The position numbers and the translations under genes are program-made. A stretch of DNA of 64,000 nt from Gammaproteobacteria bacterium (lineage in GTDB: Bacteria > Pseudomonadota > Gammaproteobacteria > Steroidobacterales > XN24). Location of the stretch: contig JAHEFR010000013.1 in assembly GCA_024640085.1 (NCBI GenBank), forward strand, positions 1 through 64,000, in the 5' to 3' direction. Below, in pieces: positions 35,286 to 49,063 of the stretch (position 1 is the stretch's first letter; the number at the start of each line of letters is the position of its first letter). The notes beneath the pieces were generated by a model. The model was not told where the DNA came from. It saw only the letters and a list, made by a program, of their open reading frames with translations, and made no database searches.

Positions 35286-35487
35286 ACTCGCCCCGCCTGC
35301 CGGCGCCGACTCAAGTCATGGAATCGGTATGTTACATGGGCAGCAGCCACCCGGCAGCCGGGGCCTGCGCGTGAAATGTGACAAACGCCTCGGATTGGCC
35401 GAAACTGCACCGCTAGTGTGACTCTGCATGTTTGGCAGAGCGCGATGTCACGGTCCGGTGGCGACAGATCGCACGGTTGACAACACG

Positions 35488-36540
35488 ATGCAGGAATCCC
35501 CGGCTCAATCCGATTCAGGAGAGGTCTCCCTCCCGGCCACCGGGGATGAGAGCGCCACGTCTCCTCCGGACGAGGCGTTCGAGCCCGCGGTGAAACCACC
35601 CGACCCGGTAGCGCAAATCGGTGCTGCCTCGCAAACGGATGGGGGGATTTCAGGCAGCGACGCCCTGCTCGCGGTCGTCCTGGTATTGCTGGTGGCCCTG
35701 ACGCTGCTCGGGATCCGGGTCCTGCGTATGAGGGACCGGCTGAGGGAGGCGCGGGACGATCGTGACTCCGCCCGGGAAGAGGCGAACCACCTGAGATCCC
35801 TGATGTCGCAGATGCAAAAGGCGTCAGAAGTGAAGGCCAGGCATCGGGTCACCCGTCTCCTGCAGCGCAGCCAGCAGACCGAGAGGGAGAAAGAGGCCCT
35901 CGAGCAGAGCAACACGCGCCTTCGCCGTCTGATCCAACTCGACGACCTGACAGGCGTGGCGAACGCCCAGGAGCTGGGTCACGGCCTGGACAGGGAACTC
36001 AGGAGAGCAAGGCGTTCCGGCCGGCCGGTCTCGCTGGTGATCGCCGATCTGGACGGCTTTCGGAAATTCAACCGGCTCTGCGGCCATGACCGGGGTGACG
36101 ACTTGCTGAAACGGGTGACCCATCTGGCCGAGTCCATCTTCCGCCGGGGCGGCGACCTCGTGGGCAGGATCGCCGGGGATCGGTTCGCGATCATCGTCCC
36201 CGAAGCGGATTACGAGTCGGTGCTGGGGCAGGCGGAGCGCCTGCGAGCCGCCATCGCCGCATCCAGAATCCCTGTTGGCGATCCCGCCGGAGGCGAAACC
36301 GTGACGATCAGCATCGGCGTGACCTCCATCGTTCCGGATAGGGAATTCCGGCCCTACCAGGTATTCGAACGAGGGGTACTTGCCATGCAACTCGCCAAGA
36401 AACGCGGCGGCAACCTGGTCCGGAGTGACCGGGCCGGACCACGCGCGCCCGGCGACGCCGGCGCAAGGCCGGCTGGTGGAGCGGTGGCCCAGACTGTAGA
36501 CCTTTTCCCGGATGACGCCGGAGAAGCCGGGTCCCGGTGA
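35488..36540 (+). CDS. membrane-anchored protein with degenerate GGDEF domain, likely c-di-GMP sensor
   Basis: The 350-residue product has an acidic N-terminal segment, one membrane helix (about 58-80) and a long coiled coil (about 80-150). A GGDEF-type domain follows (LDDLTGVANAQELGHGLDRE). The active-site motif is AGDRF instead of GGDEF, so cyclase activity is unlikely. The RxxD inhibitory site (RGGD) five residues earlier is kept, which suggests it binds c-di-GMP. The start is uncertain: ATG 35488 is preferred, ATG 35428 is possible, and neither has a good ribosome binding site. The gene overlaps the REC-EAL gene by GTGA. Confidence 0.82.
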   Translation: MQESPAQSDSGEVSLPATGDESATSPPDEAFEPAVKPPDPVAQIGAASQTDGGISGSDALLAVVLVLLVALTLLGIRVLRMRDRLREARDDRDSAREEANHLRSLMSQMQKASEVKARHRVTRLLQRSQQTEREKEALEQSNTRLRRLIQLDDLTGVANAQELGHGLDRELRRARRSGRPVSLVIADLDGFRKFNRLCGHDRGDDLLKRVTHLAESIFRRGGDLVGRIAGDRFAIIVPEADYESVLGQAERLRAAIAASRIPVGDPAGGETVTISIGVTSIVPDREFRPYQVFERGVLAMQLAKKRGGNLVRSDRAGPRAPGDAGARPAGGAVAQTVDLFPDDAGEAGSR

Positions 36541-37733
36541 CCATCATGGGGATGCCGCATTCGGTGCTGGTGGTGGACGAGGACCTGGAACAGGCCCGGG
36601 ACCTCGCCGGCCGGCTGGAGACCATGGGATTCGAGACCTTCATCGCCTGCAGCGACGACGACGTCCACGATCTGCTGTCCAGCGGCTTTGACTCCGTCGT
36701 TCTCGACCTGATGATGACCAGGGAGGACGGTATCCAGGTCATCCGGCACATGGGCCAGGAAAGGAGCGATGCCAATCTGGTCATCGTCGGCGACGCGGAC
36801 CGGCGGATCCTGAGCGCAGCCGAGCGCCTGGCGCGCGCCCGCGGTCTGAGGGTTGCCGGCTCCCTGTCCAAGCCAATCGATTTCAGTGTGCTGGGACGGA
36901 TGCTGGAGCGGGGGGTCACCCGGGCGGGCGCTGGCAGTCGGGGCATCAACGTCCAGGTGGCCCAGACAGAACTCCTGCAATGCATGGCGGACGGATGCAT
37001 CGACGTGACGTACCAGCCGAAGATCGACGTCCGGACATTGGAGTTCATCGCCGTCGAGGCCCTCGTCCGACTTAACCACCCCACCCACGGCCAGCTCCTG
37101 CCGGCGGCCTTCCTGGCCATGGCGGAAGAGTCGGGATTGATCAGCCGCCTGACCCGCTCGGTGTTCCTCAAGGCGCTGGCGCAGACGTCACGGTGGCTCG
37201 AGAGCGGGCTGGCGCTGCAGATCGCCGTCAACGTCTCGCCTCTGCTGCTCACCGACCTGGATCTGCCGGAAGCCTTTGCCGACCTGGCCGACAAGCACAA
37301 CGTTGCCCGGGACAACATCGTCCTGGAGATCACCGAATCGTGGATCAATGAGGAACCGGTCTCGGCTCTCGATATCCTCACGCGGCTGCGGGTCAAGGGA
37401 TTCAACCTGTCCATCGACGACTTCGGCACCGGTTATTCCACCATGCTCCAGCTCAACGAGATGCCCTACAGCGAGATGAAGCTGGACCAGAGCTTCATAC
37501 GCAACGCGACCCGTGACAGGGAAACCCGGGCCATCGTGGAATCGAGTATCGAACTCGGGCACAAGCTCGGCCTCAAGGTGGTGGCCGAGGGCATCGAGAA
37601 GCAGGAAGACTGGGACCTGATCTCGGACCTGCATTGCGACGAGGGGCAGGGATTCTTTATCGCCAGGCCCATGCTGGCCGAGAAGATCCCCCCCTGGCTC
37701 AATCACTGGAACAGTTGTCTCGGGCGAGGCTGA
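36537..37733 (+). CDS. response regulator with EAL phosphodiesterase domain
   Basis: This 398-residue protein has a receiver domain (phospho-acceptor Asp in VVLDLMM, Lys in SLSKPI) followed by an EAL domain. The catalytic residues are all present: EALVRLNHP, NVSPLLL, LEITES, IDDFGTGYS, MKLDQSF, EGIE and QGFFIARPM. It should hydrolyse c-di-GMP to pGpG under control of a histidine kinase not found nearby. The start is GTG at 36537, overlapping the previous stop, or ATG at 36546. It is coupled to the degenerate GGDEF gene. Confidence 0.92.
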   Translation: MTIMGMPHSVLVVDEDLEQARDLAGRLETMGFETFIACSDDDVHDLLSSGFDSVVLDLMMTREDGIQVIRHMGQERSDANLVIVGDADRRILSAAERLARARGLRVAGSLSKPIDFSVLGRMLERGVTRAGAGSRGINVQVAQTELLQCMADGCIDVTYQPKIDVRTLEFIAVEALVRLNHPTHGQLLPAAFLAMAEESGLISRLTRSVFLKALAQTSRWLESGLALQIAVNVSPLLLTDLDLPEAFADLADKHNVARDNIVLEITESWINEEPVSALDILTRLRVKGFNLSIDDFGTGYSTMLQLNEMPYSEMKLDQSFIRNATRDRETRAIVESSIELGHKLGLKVVAEGIEKQEDWDLISDLHCDEGQGFFIARPMLAEKIPPWLNHWNSCLGRG

Positions 37734-40914: not shown

Positions 40915-40969
40915 CAAAAAAAAGAAGGCGCCGTTTAACGATTCGCTTTGTAGGCGAATCACGGCGCCT
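40915..40969 (-). terminator. intrinsic terminator of the sigma-54-driven small gene
   Basis: Read on the minus strand, AGGCGCCGT (40969-40961) pairs with ACGGCGCCT (40934-40926). An inner GATTCGC/GCGAATC stem (40960-40954 and 40946-40940) is separated from it by a one-sided 5-base bulge. The hairpin is followed by a run of eight T residues (40923-40916). The rest of 40697-41027 holds no gene I can support. Confidence 0.85.
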
Positions 40970-41027
40970 GAGGGGGGAGGGGGAATCGAATTCTGTCGCT
41001 AAACCGTCCTGGCGTTGTGTATTGGCG

Positions 41028-41270
41028 TCATCCGGCCGCTTTCGCAACCGGCTCCATCTCGTAACCGATGACCTCGCGGGTCTCCGGGTCCTTGATCGCG
41101 AGGGCCCGGCGGAATCTGGCCACGTCCTCGCCTTTGAAGATCCCGGTATCGGCCACGTCTTCCACCGCGAATTGCCCGTCCTCGAGCCGGATCAGCGCCT
41201 GGATGCCCTCGCCGGCGCCCTGGTGGCGCTTCTTGCTCGGCATCAACACTGCAATCACTTCTCTGGACAT
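41028..41270 (-). CDS. 80-residue protein of unknown function under sigma-54 control
   Basis: This small soluble protein begins MSREVIAVLMPSKKRHQGAG and contains IQALIRLEDGQFAVEDVADT, GIFKGEDVARFRRALAIKDP and a final ETREVIGYEMEPVAKAAG. It has no signal peptide, membrane helix or cysteines. I do not recognise a family. The ATG at 41270 has AGAGGA about 8 bases upstream. The gene stands alone between a perfect sigma-54 promoter (41317-41301) and its own terminator. A stress, nitrogen, motility or respiration-linked role is possible, but the sequence does not decide. Confidence 0.75.
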   Translation of the reverse strand: MSREVIAVLMPSKKRHQGAGEGIQALIRLEDGQFAVEDVADTGIFKGEDVARFRRALAIKDPETREVIGYEMEPVAKAAG

Positions 41271-41300
41271 GAACGGTTTCCTCTGGCCTGTATGTGTATA

Positions 41301-41317
41301 TGCAACCCCCGTGCCAG
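41301..41317 (-). promoter_or_regulatory. sigma-54 (-24/-12) promoter
   Basis: On the minus strand CTGGCACG-GGGG-TTGCAT matches the RpoN consensus YTGGCACG-N4-TTGCW at every fixed position, with the required 10 bases between the GG and GC pairs. Transcription should begin near 41291, about 20 bases before the ATG at 41270. Confidence 0.85.
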
Positions 41318-41334
41318 ATTTGATAAACAAATAA

Positions 41335-41347
41335 AATCAATGGGTTA
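41335..41347 (+). promoter_or_regulatory. IHF-type binding site upstream of the sigma-54 promoter
   Basis: AATCAA-TGGG-TTA fits the IHF consensus WATCAA-N4-TTR exactly and has an adjacent A/T-rich flank. It lies about 50 bases upstream of the predicted start, between the promoter and the palindrome at 41372-41388, where IHF bends DNA to bring an activator to RpoN polymerase. Confidence 0.6.
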
Positions 41348-41371
41348 TATCGCCTCTGACGGGACTCCGGG

Positions 41372-41396
41372 GTGACGAATTTCGTCACATTGTGAC
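41372..41396. promoter_or_regulatory. palindromic enhancer-like site (three GTGAC half-sites)
   Basis: GTGACGAA-T-TTCGTCAC (41372-41388) is a perfect inverted repeat with 8-base arms. GTCAC-ATT-GTGAC (41384-41396) shares one arm with it. It is centred about 90 bases upstream of the sigma-54 start, the usual place for an activator of the NtrC class. It lies equally about 75 bases before the divergent gene at 41463, so it could serve that gene. Confidence 0.6.
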
Positions 41397-41462: not shown

Positions 41463-42206
41463 TTGGAGCCCGATTCCTGCAGGAACTGCGGAGCGGCCAT
41501 GGATACGCCGTACTGTGGCGCCTGTGGCCAGGCTGCCTACCGCCGCCTCAGCTTCCGCTCAATGTTCCGGGATTCGCTGATCAGGATCTTCGATCTGGAA
41601 GGCGGTTTCCTGCACACCCTCATCGCCCTGTCGGTCCGGCCGGGGCCGACCATCCGTGAATACGTCGCCGGGCGGCGCGGGCCCCTGACCCATCCGGTCA
41701 GCTACTGTTTCCTGCTGGCTACCCTTTATGCGCTCACTATCAACCTGCTGGACGTGGAAATCTCCCTCGGCGGGGCACTGGAATTTACCGACATCGAGCG
41801 ACGGGTCTATCACGTCCTGCACGGGATCCTGGCCTACCTGATCTTCCTGGCTCTTTGGCCAGCGGCCGCGATCCAGCGGCGGCTGTTCCGCGCCTCGGGA
41901 TTTTCTTTCGCCGAGACCTACGCCTTCTGCCTCTACGCGTTCGGCCACCTCAACCTGGTCGGAACGGCTTTCGCCGCATCGGGACTGCTTGCGACCAGCG
42001 CGGGATTGACCGCCCTCGGCCTGATCCAGGTCGTCTACTCAGTCTGGGCCATGAAAGGGTTCTACCGTCTCGCCCGCCCGCCGATCCTGCGGGCACTGGC
42101 CGTCTCCACCGCCAGCTTTGTCACCACCAATATCCTGTCGTTGATCGTCGGCAACCTGATCGTTGCCACCGGGCTGCTGGAACAAGTCGAGTCAATCCTT
42201 GCCTGA
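41463..42206 (+). CDS. DUF3667-type membrane protein with N-terminal zinc ribbon
   Basis: This 247-residue protein has an N-terminal zinc ribbon (CRNCGAAMDTPYCGACGQ) and then about five membrane helices. The segment LSFRSMFRDSLIRIFDLEGG followed by RPGPTIREYVAGRRGPLTHP is the DUF3667 signature. Function unknown. No ATG is available; TTG at 41463 has GGGGAG six bases upstream. It is divergent from the sigma-54-driven small gene and shares its upstream palindrome. Confidence 0.82.
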   Translation: MEPDSCRNCGAAMDTPYCGACGQAAYRRLSFRSMFRDSLIRIFDLEGGFLHTLIALSVRPGPTIREYVAGRRGPLTHPVSYCFLLATLYALTINLLDVEISLGGALEFTDIERRVYHVLHGILAYLIFLALWPAAAIQRRLFRASGFSFAETYAFCLYAFGHLNLVGTAFAASGLLATSAGLTALGLIQVVYSVWAMKGFYRLARPPILRALAVSTASFVTTNILSLIVGNLIVATGLLEQVESILA

Positions 42207-44481: not shown

Positions 44482-44964
44482 CTACCAGCAGTCGGTGCTC
44501 GAGCCCGACACGGACTTCACGCCCGTATGAGTGATGCTGAGGGTCCCGCAATGGGTGTGCTTGGTGTCGTTGGTGGCCTGGCTCAACTGGGGCACCGCCT
44601 GTGCGGTGAAGGCCGTGGCCGAAGCGCCGCCCGCCAGCGAGATAATGTAGATCCTGTCTGTCGACGTCGACGCGACTTCCTTGCCGGACTTGTCGATAGC
44701 AAAGCCGTTCTCGCCAAAACCCAGGGTCGTCAGGTCCGTGGCGAAACCCTTGTTGTCCACGTAGAACTGGGCCTGCCGGTCCATCACCTGCACCAGGGCC
44801 GATTTCGCAAGCCCCACCTTCGAGCGGGTGACGTATTGCTGATAGGACGGGAACGCGATCGCCGCCAGGATGCCCACGATACCCACGGTGATCAAGAGTT
44901 CGATGAGGGTGAACCCGCTGACACGCGCCGGTGATCGTCCTCTCTTGTTGCCGTCATCTCGCAT
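44482..44964 (-). CDS. pilE: type IV pilin-like protein (PilE family), last gene of the minor pilin operon
   Basis: This 160-residue prepilin has a basic leader ending in Gly before [20 protein letters not shown], with Glu5 present, and the [20 protein letters not shown] helix of PilE-type minor pilins. Two C-terminal cysteines (HCGTL and TDCW) can form the D-loop disulfide. It is processed by prepilin peptidase and built into type IV pili. The ribosome binding site GAGGGAAG is clear. It lies about 50 bases after pilY1. Confidence 0.92.
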
Positions 44965-45017
44965 AATTCTTCCCTCGGGATGCGGGGCAGGGCGCCGGGG
45001 CGCCCTGCCCGATCCGG

Positions 45018-48000
45018 TTACTGTGTCTGGTCCTCTTCCTTGTACCAGAATGTGCGCCAGCGCTGCCGGCCGGGGTAGGACTGAACCGTCAGGTCAGGTC
45101 TCAGGATGAACTTGGGCGGCAGGGCCACCACCTCGGCCGGGATGCCGGCCGAGGAAAGCGTCTCCCACCGGTCCTCCGGATCCCCCGGCTGCTCCTGCTC
45201 GTCGATGGGCTTGTCCCGGTTGACCAGGGCATTGCCCTCCGCCAGACCGACGGCATAGAGACGACCCTGACCTTCCGGAGGAATGCATTGATCGTCTATA
45301 TCCGCTGATCCGGGGGGGATGAACGTGGTGAAGAACACGATGCCGGACAGGGTGATCGGCGTCGACAGACTCTTCTCCCCACCGCCCTCGAGTTCCAGCT
45401 TCCAGCCCTCTGCGAGCCCGGTCGCGGCGCAACTGGTAGCCAGGGTGCAATTGGTGATGTCCGCCAGTTCGTCGATGGTCTTCGGAACCACGGAGCCCGA
45501 TGCCGGAGCGACCAGGGTCGAGGTCTCCCTGTCCTTGATCACGAACATGAAGTTGTCCGTTGTGGTTCCCAGGGGGGTCGCCCGATTACCTGAACCAATA
45601 ACAACTCCGTCATAGTCGCCACTGCTGTCCCTGAAGGGCACGATGTCGGGGGCGTGGAAGAATCGCCGATCCTGGCCGCACTGGCCGCTTGGATCCGGGC
45701 TCGGGCAACCGCCGTCCCGCCGTCCCAGGGACGCCAGCTGGTTGATGGCCCAGTCCGCGGTGCTGGCGGCCGTCGCCGGCATGTCCATCCGCCAGACGTT
45801 ACCGCCCATGTCGCCCACCACCAGCCGATCCAGCAGACCGTCACCGTTGAGGTCCGCACCGGCAACGGTAGAGGGGATCGAATCGACCATCCCGGCGGCG
45901 CTGAACTTGTGGATCAGGGCGCCAGTCTCAGAGTTGACCACGAAGACAGCGTTGCCGCTGGCGGTGGCTGGCGAGCCGGTATCATAGGCCGTGTCGTAAC
46001 CGCCCCCGAAGACAAGCACCGGGTAGTTCGTGCCGCCGATCTTGACCTTGCCGGCCACCGGAGTCGAGAAGGTATAGGCCAGATCGGCGAAAGCGCCGGA
46101 ACCGCCATCGATGCGCCACATCAGATCCGGGTTCTCCGGATCCGAGATGTCGATCCCGTAGTAGGACTTGCCGCCGCGGCGCAACCCGAAGTACAGGTGG
46201 ACTTTCTCACCGGACTGAATGGTGCCGTCGCCGTCCTCCTCGATGTAGATCACCGGTGCCCCGTCGACGCCGTAGGGGGGCTTGATACCGAAGCTGCCCA
46301 ACCCGCGGTAGGCCCGTGTCAGCTTCTCGGTGGTGGCCATGGTGGCCCGGGGTGCGAAGGCCCAGACTTCCTCTCCATAGGTGGCGGCAGTCTGCGGGTT
46401 ACCCTGGGTATGGCCAGTCGGCGTATTGCGGATGAAGCGCATCATGCCGTCGTTGGTGCCCACCGCCACGTAGATCTCGGGGTTTGTGCTGCTGTACGAA
46501 CCACGGGCGCCGTAGTTGACCGGGATCGGACGAGAATGCAGTGCCGAGGCCATGTACCAGCGCCGGCCCTCGGCCACATCCAGGTTGGTGTTCTCGTCGT
46601 ACACGTCCCGGCCGCGCAGCCACCCGATCAGATCCTTGGCCTCGGTCGTGTCCGCCGCGTTGAAATCGCTCTGCAGGGCCGCCGCCACGCCGTCTGTGAC
46701 ATCCAGGTCCGCTAGTTGGCTGGCGGTGGAATCGTAGAAAATCTGTCGCCTATTGTCGCTGTTCTTCTCGCCGGGTGAACCGCTGGCGAACCCTAGCTGC
46801 TTGTGGCCAGCCCCGCCACGATTAACCGACCGCCCATCCTTGAGGGGCACTTCTCCCAGGTCAGTGTTGAAATCGTCCTTGACGTCGTAAATCGTGGGGT
46901 TGGTCCAGAAACTCAGGGCGTCGAAACGGATACGGCCGTCGGCGGCGATGGCCGGGTCGCCGTCGGCGTCTTCCAGGAAGACGTTGCCGCCGCTGTTCAG
47001 GCCCTCGAGGCGCAACTTCTTGACGTTGCCGTACCAGTAGGGCTCCTTGTCGGGACTCGGCTGGAACAGGGCCAGGTAGACGTTGTCCAGCACCTCTGCC
47101 CGGTTGAAGGAGTTCACCGGTATGGAGGCGGCCACGAAAGTCGTGCTGACCGACAGGATCTGCTTGAAGATGTCCGTCAGGTTGGCGATCAACTCATCCG
47201 GGTCCTCGGACAGCAGCAGCGGCGCTCCGGTGCCCCCGGCCAGGGCGTACTGCCCTCCGGTGCGGTTCTTGACGAAAGGATCTGCCAGCAGGAAGTAGGA
47301 CTTCACGCCCTGGTCACCGGGAATGGTGGACTGGTCGTTGTCCTTGAGCTCGCGGATCACGTCGACGAAAGTGATGTTCTTCTTGTTGAAGCCCATGCCT
47401 TCGTCGACGATCGCTTTCTTGATTTCTGGGTCGGAATCGTCTTCCTGGTTGGACACCTGGAACATCATGTTGACGGTGTAGATCGCCGTGCACTTGCCGT
47501 CCGCGAAAGGATCGATGTACTGGTGCCAGGTGCCGCTGTCCTGCTCGATGGACGTATCCCAGGCATAGCGGTCCTCGCGCATGGCCACCTGATCGGCCGC
47601 CGTGTTCGCGCCGGGATCGTAGGTCACGTGCAGGGGGTCGGCGTTCAGGTTCCAGTTGTTGGCATTCTCGTTGTCCGCCTGCTGCTGGGCGTTCGTCGGA
47701 TTCGGATACGGCGCGTCGGAGGGCAGCGGATTCGGCAGTAAATCGGGGTTGCCGTCACCGGTGGTGTCGTAACCGTCGTTGCCGTCATAGCTGGTGAAAC
47801 CCGTGTGGCCGTTGTAGACGTGGAATCCGCGCAGGTAGCGGTAGAGCTCGAAGAACAGTTCCTTGCCCTGGTAGGAATGGGTCCGGTCGCCAGTGGATAC
47901 GGGGATGCTCCAGAGAATTTCGTGGATCTTCTGGCGCGTCGTGTCGGCACAGGTGCCGTAGCTCCGGTCCGTGTTGGCTTCCGGCACTACGCCCCCCTGG

Positions 48001-48506
48001 AAGGGCCCGCAGGACTTGCGGCCGCCGACATAACTGCCGTCGGCCGCCCGCTGGTTGATAGCAGGCAGCAGCGTGAAGCCCAGGGCGATGTAGCCGCCGT
48101 TGCTGCATCCCTCGTCCGTGGAACCGGAAGGTCCCTCGCAATTGTTGATGTTATCGTGGTTGAACATCAGCCCGAGACGGACGCCGCCGACCTCGTCCAG
48201 TACCTTGCCGAAGGACCCGCGGATGAGATCGAAGAAATCGTAGGCCTCGCCGGCGCCCTTGTCGGGCATATAGCCGTCATCCACCAGCGCGTCGCAGGAG
48301 GCGTCGCCCCGGCGGCAGACCACGGAGCCCAGGTTGGGCCGGTAGTCGATGCTGAACATGACCATCGGCTCGCTGCCTTCCGGCGGATCGTCGTCACGCA
48401 GGTAGAGATCAGTGTCGTCGGCCTGGACCTGGGGCGCGCCGCTAAGAAGAATCGCTGCGGCGCCTGTCAGAATGATAAGTGTCTTGCGAAACATGGCGAA
48501 CTCCAT
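45018..48506 (-). CDS. pilY1: type IV pilus tip adhesin/assembly protein
   Basis: This 1162-residue protein has a Sec signal ([19 protein letters not shown]). The N-terminal region is von Willebrand-like ([15 protein letters not shown]...). The C-terminal part is a beta-propeller typical of PilY1 ([48 protein letters not shown]). DLNGDGLLD is a calcium-binding loop like the one that controls PilY1 in Pseudomonas. The start ATG at 48506 overlaps the pilX stop by one base (TGATG), with GGAGGA eight bases upstream. It caps minor-pilin complexes and can act in surface sensing. Confidence 0.93.
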
Positions 48507-49063
48507 CAGAAATTCCTCCCCGACCCCGATGTCACGAAGACCAGTACGCCTTCGTTGATCTCGACCCGGCCACCGCCGTTTTGCGGATTGCATTCGGTGC
48601 AGTCATAGACCACTGTTACCCGGAAGGGCGCGCAGCCGGTGCCTACCGCCGTGGTGCCGATGCCACGCGGGCACGGCGCCTCCTCCGAACCCGTGCGCTG
48701 TATCGCCACGCTGAATTCGCTGTTGGCCCAGCCGTCCCCGTTGACCACGTTCATGGCGTTGATAATCGCCGCCTCGGTAACGAAGTTCTCGGATACGTCG
48801 CAGTCGGCGTTGTCGATGACATCGGTCGAGCAGCGCTTGAAATCCTCGTCGCCTACCACCGGTGTCGCCGCCGGCGTGGCCGCGACCCAGTCCGCCAGGG
48901 ATTGCGCCTGCTGGAAGGCGCTGACGCGGATCTCGTCGTTCAGGGACATGCGCAGTTCCAGCACCCCGGAGCGGATGGAAGCCAGGGCGATGAAGGTCAC
49001 GACGATGAGGAACATCAGGGCCGTGAACAGCACTGCGCCTCGTTGTGATCTGTAGCTCGACAT
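48506..49063 (-). CDS. pilX: minor pilin PilX
   Basis: This 185-residue minor pilin has the leader MSSYRSQRG followed by AVLFTALMFLIVVTFIALAS. As in other PilX and GspK-like proteins, the residue at position 5 of the mature form is not Glu. The region SAFQQAQSLADWVAATPAAT matches PilX. Four or more cysteines occur in the C-terminal domain. GAGGTG precedes the ATG at 49063. It is coupled to pilY1. Confidence 0.88.
   Translation of the reverse strand: MSSYRSQRGAVLFTALMFLIVVTFIALASIRSGVLELRMSLNDEIRVSAFQQAQSLADWVAATPAATPVVGDEDFKRCSTDVIDNADCDVSENFVTEAAIINAMNVVNGDGWANSEFSVAIQRTGSEEAPCPRGIGTTAVGTGCAPFRVTVVYDCTECNPQNGGGRVEINEGVLVFVTSGSGRNF

Follow-up and report, generated by a model that had tools for sequence, protein, structure and literature searches.

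A conserved sigma-54 unit for a small TsaP-like protein and its probable place in the PilS-PilR regulon of Steroidobacterales

Introduction

Sigma-54 promoters with a full enhancer are usually thought of as drivers of large operons. The locus described here raises the question of why such an architecture should stand before a single gene of 80 codons, which activator it answers to, and what its product may do. The unit lies in a window of 64,000 nucleotides, the whole stretch of DNA analysed, and is composed of the following features.

41031..41270, (-) strand: coding sequence of the 80-residue protein, by translation; stop codon 41030-41028
41317-41301, (-) strand: sigma-54 -24/-12 promoter CTGGCACGGGGGTTGCA, exact match with full score
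41335..41347, (+) strand: IHF-type site AATCAATGGGTTA, exact, between enhancer and promoter
41371..41396, (+) strand: predicted PilR-type upstream activating sequence (UAS) with three GTGAC/GTCAC half-sites, from model R1
40969-40915, (-) strand: intrinsic terminator of the single-gene unit, a stem-loop followed by eight T

Anatomy of the unit

The palindrome GTGACGAATTTCGTCAC occupies positions 41372-41388 and is followed by a third half-site, GTGAC, at 41392-41396; the genome has a single copy of the combination GTGACGAA-N-TTCGTCAC. A ribosome-binding site, AGAGGAAA, precedes the ATG of the gene. The terminator has a folding energy of -25.7 kcal/mol, computed for an 80-base stretch, and is absent from the output of a simple terminator scan. 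Screening against Rfam gave one snoRNA match far below the gathering score, which was taken as chance. An earlier sequence-only reading had named four elements, the palindrome, the IHF site, the RpoN promoter and the gene with its terminator, and all four were recovered where it had placed them.

With the hand-weighted scores used here for sigma-54 and UAS sites, the promoter reaches the full score of 15.2, and the next best site in the window 13.2. Only two places in the genome (3.19 Mb, 95.8% complete) show the exact pattern TGGCAC-N5-TTGCW. It is not enriched when up to one mismatch is allowed (59 matches vs 88 for a backwards control), so the argument relies on the match being exact, on its context and on how well it is conserved. 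The rpoN gene itself is present (Sigma54_AID, C64:125579-125716, E = 2.6e-16). The IHF consensus WATCAANNNNTTR at 41335-41347 is the sole exact match on both strands of the window, where 0.27 are expected from 30 Markov-1 sequences.

Conservation at homologous loci

A profile of the protein family found a match in 48 of 396 genomes of the order. Fifty-one places were examined, comprising 37 with the short form (35 genomes), 13 with a lipoprotein-like form, and one (L214 of genome G169) which we considered spurious and excluded from all counts. The short form is distributed over families f1, f3, f6, f10 and f11, and its occurrence in just 35 of the 396 genomes denotes that it is no essential part of the pilus.

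The best sigma-54 site was sought in up to 220 bases before each gene (only about 150 for L202, a lipoprotein-like locus). Lack of the promoter and palindrome at orthologues, which the sequence-only reading had named as evidence against itself, is not what was found: at 35 of the 37 short-form loci the sigma-54 score is no lower than 14.2, the maximum being 15.2 (weak or none at L186 and L187), and 33 have a UAS score of at least 10, a threshold that takes in L196 at exactly 10.0 (weak or none at L186, L191, L192 and L193). The gap from the UAS to the -24 box measures 53 to 55 bases at 19 of the 37. Among 266 neighbouring control ORFs, called by a simple custom ORF caller, one has a sigma-54 score of at least 14.2 and none combines sigma-54 and UAS. 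Six of them do have a UAS score of at least 10; each scores the same as the element of the nearby small gene, so that most likely this element was seen from its other side. IHF-type sites are conserved as well. In the 35 spacers with a sigma-54 score of at least 14, five exact sites were found vs 0.08 expected, and sites within one mismatch in 20 vs 1.5 expected, the expectations being derived from mononucleotide shuffles of 60-base spacers. A complete and conserved sigma-54 enhancer unit for one small unrecognised protein, as the sequence-only reading had proposed, is thereby upheld in anatomy and at the homologues.

The lipoprotein-like relatives (L201-L213), mostly from family f7, carry conserved cysteines (CFK...TTCL) and stand without the promoter, none having a sigma-54 score above 12.0. 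At two of them, L201 and L210, the UAS scores 11 to 12, with the sigma-54 site absent.

The conservation also bears on the gene that diverges from the unit in the window, a DUF3667 gene at 41463-42206. The palindrome might serve this gene, with the sigma-54 unit being incidental, and a DUF3667-type gene (cluster c44) is indeed found beside the small gene in four locus sets of family f1. However, the DUF3667 gene of the window has no sigma-54 site before it (score 10.7), and families lacking such a neighbour retain the element, which makes this explanation highly improbable.

The PilS-PilR-pilin locus of the same genome

The second of the two exact sigma-54 sites is located on contig C19 before a pilin gene (Pfam Pilin, 2.3e-17; N_methyl). 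Directly upstream of this gene are encoded a PilR-type regulator, in which receiver, sigma-54 activation and Fis-type domains are recognised, and a kinase that carries the 6TM_PilS domain (5.5e-29). The palindrome of this pilA, GTGACAATTTTTGTCACTAAGTGAC, lies upstream of the -24 box at a distance of about 106 bases. When its other strand is read, the element in the window displays the same three GTGAC-type half-sites in the same register as those of pilA. The two promoters thus share a sigma-54 site and a three-half-site element but differ in that the element of the small gene is inverted, stands only about 54 bases from its -24 box, and precedes a gene whose product is no pilin. A published PilR half-site consensus in P. 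aeruginosa is C/G-TGTC.

Two earlier views have to be revised in this light. The activator site had not been assigned to any familiar site, yet the same element precedes pilA beside pilR, and the activator of the palindrome is most likely PilR, judged from the site. Use of sigma-54 for one small gene had seemed odd, and it is less so in view of the pilin gene, which shares the element and likewise has a sigma-54 site of its own. A PEP-CTERM response regulator was also considered and set aside because pilA explained the site.

A close PilR is encoded in 12 of the 13 homologue-bearing genomes, the exception being G040 (81% complete); in the eleven other than the window's own, PilR is 62 to 76% identical to that of the window's genome. 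In 11 of the 12 genomes the pilin gene directly follows pilR and has the palindrome before it, with a sigma-54 score of at least 14.7 in ten of these and 13.2 in G003. In the twelfth, G029, the pilin and its element are found about 2 kb further on.

A model from pilA sites as an independent test

Model R1 is a sequence-only model built from ten pilA upstream elements of other genomes, with the window's genome left out; the third half-site is degenerate in the training sites from G006, G058 and G041. Its E-values are rough. Searched over both strands of the window with filters off, R1 ranked the element of the small gene first (19.6 bits, E = 8.4e-5), ahead of the reverse strand of the same element (9.6 bits) and of the next unrelated place (4.9 bits). 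Among the 150 candidates scored in the whole genome, this element was again the best (E = 0.004), and the genome's own pilA was second with a lower score (13.0 vs 19.6 bits; E = 0.56).

The search covered 13 genomes, in each of which 150 of 514 to 1294 first-look candidates were scored. The matches listed are mainly pilA and small-gene promoters, the remaining ones being G029 C15, G058 C259, G008 C246, G041 C2:105127, G015 C30 and G041 C8; the small-gene site is not among the matches listed for G041, G051 and G058. Over 147 genomes of the order, with 50 first-look candidates scored in each, 84 gave a match at E of 0.3 or below. Further best loci from other genomes of the order, 21 in number, stand before a type IV pilin in 20 cases, in 19 of which the sigma-54 site scores at least 14.2. 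The exceptions are L290, without pilin and sigma-54 site, and L300, with the pilin only. The UAS of the small gene is the same as that at pilA, and a PilS-PilR type pair stands beside a pilin gene in the same genome, the two marks by which a place in the PilS-PilR regulon was judged. The kind of regulation, a PilR/RpoN regulon, is already known.

Since the genome holds four other matches to enhancer-binding proteins, another activator could bind. A different NtrC-family protein with a similar half-site, the likeness to pilA coming from overlapping motifs, would fit the simplicity of GTGAC/GTCAC as a half-site and the spacing and orientation unlike those at pilA. It fits less well with a three-half-site register found by a model trained on pilA sites alone, with the pilin promoters that make up nearly all further best R1 loci, and with the close PilR in 12 of 13 carriers. 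We therefore consider a different activator improbable.

The 80-residue protein and its likeness to TsaP

Neither Pfam nor NCBIfam gave a match to the 80-residue protein at E = 1, LysM included, and only weak scattered Pfam matches were obtained for 16 relatives (best 0.014). The homologues are 29-53% identical. Subsets of the available members were used in alignments A4 (23 members), A5 (16), A6 (13) and A7 (11); in the 23 aligned members R28, G32, I59, D61-P62 and G69-Y70-E71 are invariant. The short and lipoprotein-like forms are related, with a profile-profile probability of 98.0%.

Searching 369 genomes of the class with a 23-member profile yielded 34 matches, 31 of them outside the order. 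All 27 of the out-of-order matches that were translated are TsaP-like proteins, 342 to 435 residues long (measured partly start to stop and partly stop to stop), and 26 contain the LysM motif GDTLW. One of them, compared with PDB sequences, gave E = 3.3e-20 with TsaP (3jc8 chain Ta) and E = 1.8e-81 with a LysM domain-containing protein (6ve2 chain O), the latter entry being a PilQ-TsaP complex. Direct comparison of the small-protein and TsaP profiles by hhalign gave a probability of 96.4% and a score of 63.3 over 62 columns around the motif FRxGxxxxDPxTxEvLGYE, which reads FRxGxPIxDPxTxEVIGYE in the 80-residue protein. In 100 column shuffles the probability did not exceed 4.0% or the score 22.3; the reversed TsaP profile gave 0.1%, and TsaP without residues 185-262 gave 2.8%. 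The likeness was found in one direction only: the small genes were not listed at E = 1e-4 in the reverse search with the TsaP profile, and with the small-gene profiles none of the TsaP proteins from the order itself attained E = 1e-3.

The small protein differs from TsaP in having neither LysM nor the C-terminal part. Its N-terminus, read by eye, has a charged start and a short EVIAVLMP stretch, apparently without a signal peptide. It seems to be cytoplasmic, whereas TsaP is an envelope protein. Lacking LysM, and apparently a signal peptide, the protein is not itself a TsaP; full-length TsaP is also present in all 23 genomes searched, 20 of which have the short form. An AlphaFold2 model has five strands and a mean pLDDT of 75.5. 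A fold assignment was withheld because the best Foldseek match in the PDB has E = 0.44 and the best VIA row Z = 3.4, with unrelated rows. The protein may be a regulator or adaptor, as the sequence-only reading had suggested; the TsaP-like domain, as judged by its residues, points to a function in type IV pili.

A second member of the pilus programme

Based upon these results, we think it likely that PilS-PilR and RpoN, the switch for the major type IV pilin, have in this unit a second, conserved target, and that its product would serve type IV pilus assembly as an accessory or a regulator in the cytoplasm. In this scheme the three GTGAC half-sites would be occupied by phosphorylated PilR, IHF would introduce a bend between enhancer and promoter, and PilR would activate the sigma-54 polymerase at 41317-41301. 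The 80-residue protein would then be made in step with PilA, whose level PilS-PilR sets, and our best guess is that it helps to assemble or regulate pili from the cytoplasm. The pilin switch appears to turn on a TsaP-like small protein too, and the type IV pilus programme of this lineage therefore probably has an overlooked second member.

Comparable arrangements are described for other bacteria. According to PMC2725144, the pilA that PilR regulates in Geobacter lies immediately behind the pilR gene. The pilE gene of commensal Neisseria is driven via RpoN, IHF and the Npa upstream activating sequence, according to PMC6528607; activator, IHF and RpoN sites follow the same order as here, though the gene is a different one and the likeness concerns the order of parts. 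For P. aeruginosa, PMC6058289 reports ten PilR-dependent genes whose expression increases at low pilin levels, with three exceptions hypothetical or unannotated. Similar dysregulation, at least twofold in pilA and pilR mutants, is given there for tsaP and minor pilin genes, and PilR-controlled genes were termed poorly characterised in 2018. By these descriptions the pilin-responsive PilR genes resemble the small gene in being mostly hypothetical and co-regulated with pilA.

The same paper states that the six available mutants of pilA-co-regulated genes twitched normally, which raises an alternative: the small gene may be controlled by PilR while its product acts elsewhere than in pili, for example in surface adaptation or cyclic di-GMP signalling. 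In 6 of 17 short-form locus sets (blastp cluster c12; families f1, f6 and f10), relatives of the window's GGDEF and REC-EAL proteins are encoded close to the small gene, which would agree with this alternative and makes a cyclic di-GMP link thinkable. The TsaP-like segment, however, is a separate link to pili, and we regard a product acting elsewhere as possible but doubtful. A more specific idea, which we hold to be unlikely, is that the free-standing cytoplasmic TsaP-like domain, made in step with pilin, is a signal or adaptor which passes the state of pilin on to the motor of pilus assembly or to the REC-EAL cyclic di-GMP proteins encoded nearby, with its lipoprotein sister as the equivalent in the periplasm.

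Among the open-licence papers listed for PilR sites, PilR targets and TsaP, we found none that describes the unit, this family of targets or a TsaP-like domain standing by itself. A DNA element learnt from pilA alone leads here to one more family of genes, spread over five bacterial families within a single order, and this gene family resembles a pilus protein independently of the element. The small protein is a concrete new pilus-linked candidate which is open to testing, and the PilR site model can be used for reading PilR regulons of uncultured Gammaproteobacteria.

Neighbouring genes and other small genes

In the window, minor pilin (ComP_DUS, N_methyl) and PilY1 genes are located at 44485-48593 on the (-) strand, about 3 kb from the unit, and a GGDEF protein followed by a REC-EAL protein is encoded at 35428-37733 on the (+) strand. 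In two genomes of family f6 (L222 and L223), the small gene has a divergent neighbour that looks like a bactofilin gene (cluster c27, by eye).

Among the other R1 matches, the one at G041 C2:105127 (L165) has no sigma-54 site above 12.2. Another (L162, G029 C15:77058-77162) combines the R1 element and a sigma-54 site before a peptidase-like gene (by eye), and no small ORF was recognised behind the element. It may be a lost copy of the small gene, as the small gene of G218 sits beside a similar peptidase-like gene. A second family of small proteins was found behind R1 matches at L160 (1637-1915, (+) strand) and L164 (1445-1765, (+) strand), with sigma-54 scores of 14.2 and 14.7, respectively. 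These proteins, 93 and 107 aa as called, are 35% identical over 85 residues and have no Pfam match. As called, the ORF at L164 starts within the promoter and so probably has its true start further downstream, and at L160 a type IV pilin is encoded on the other strand.
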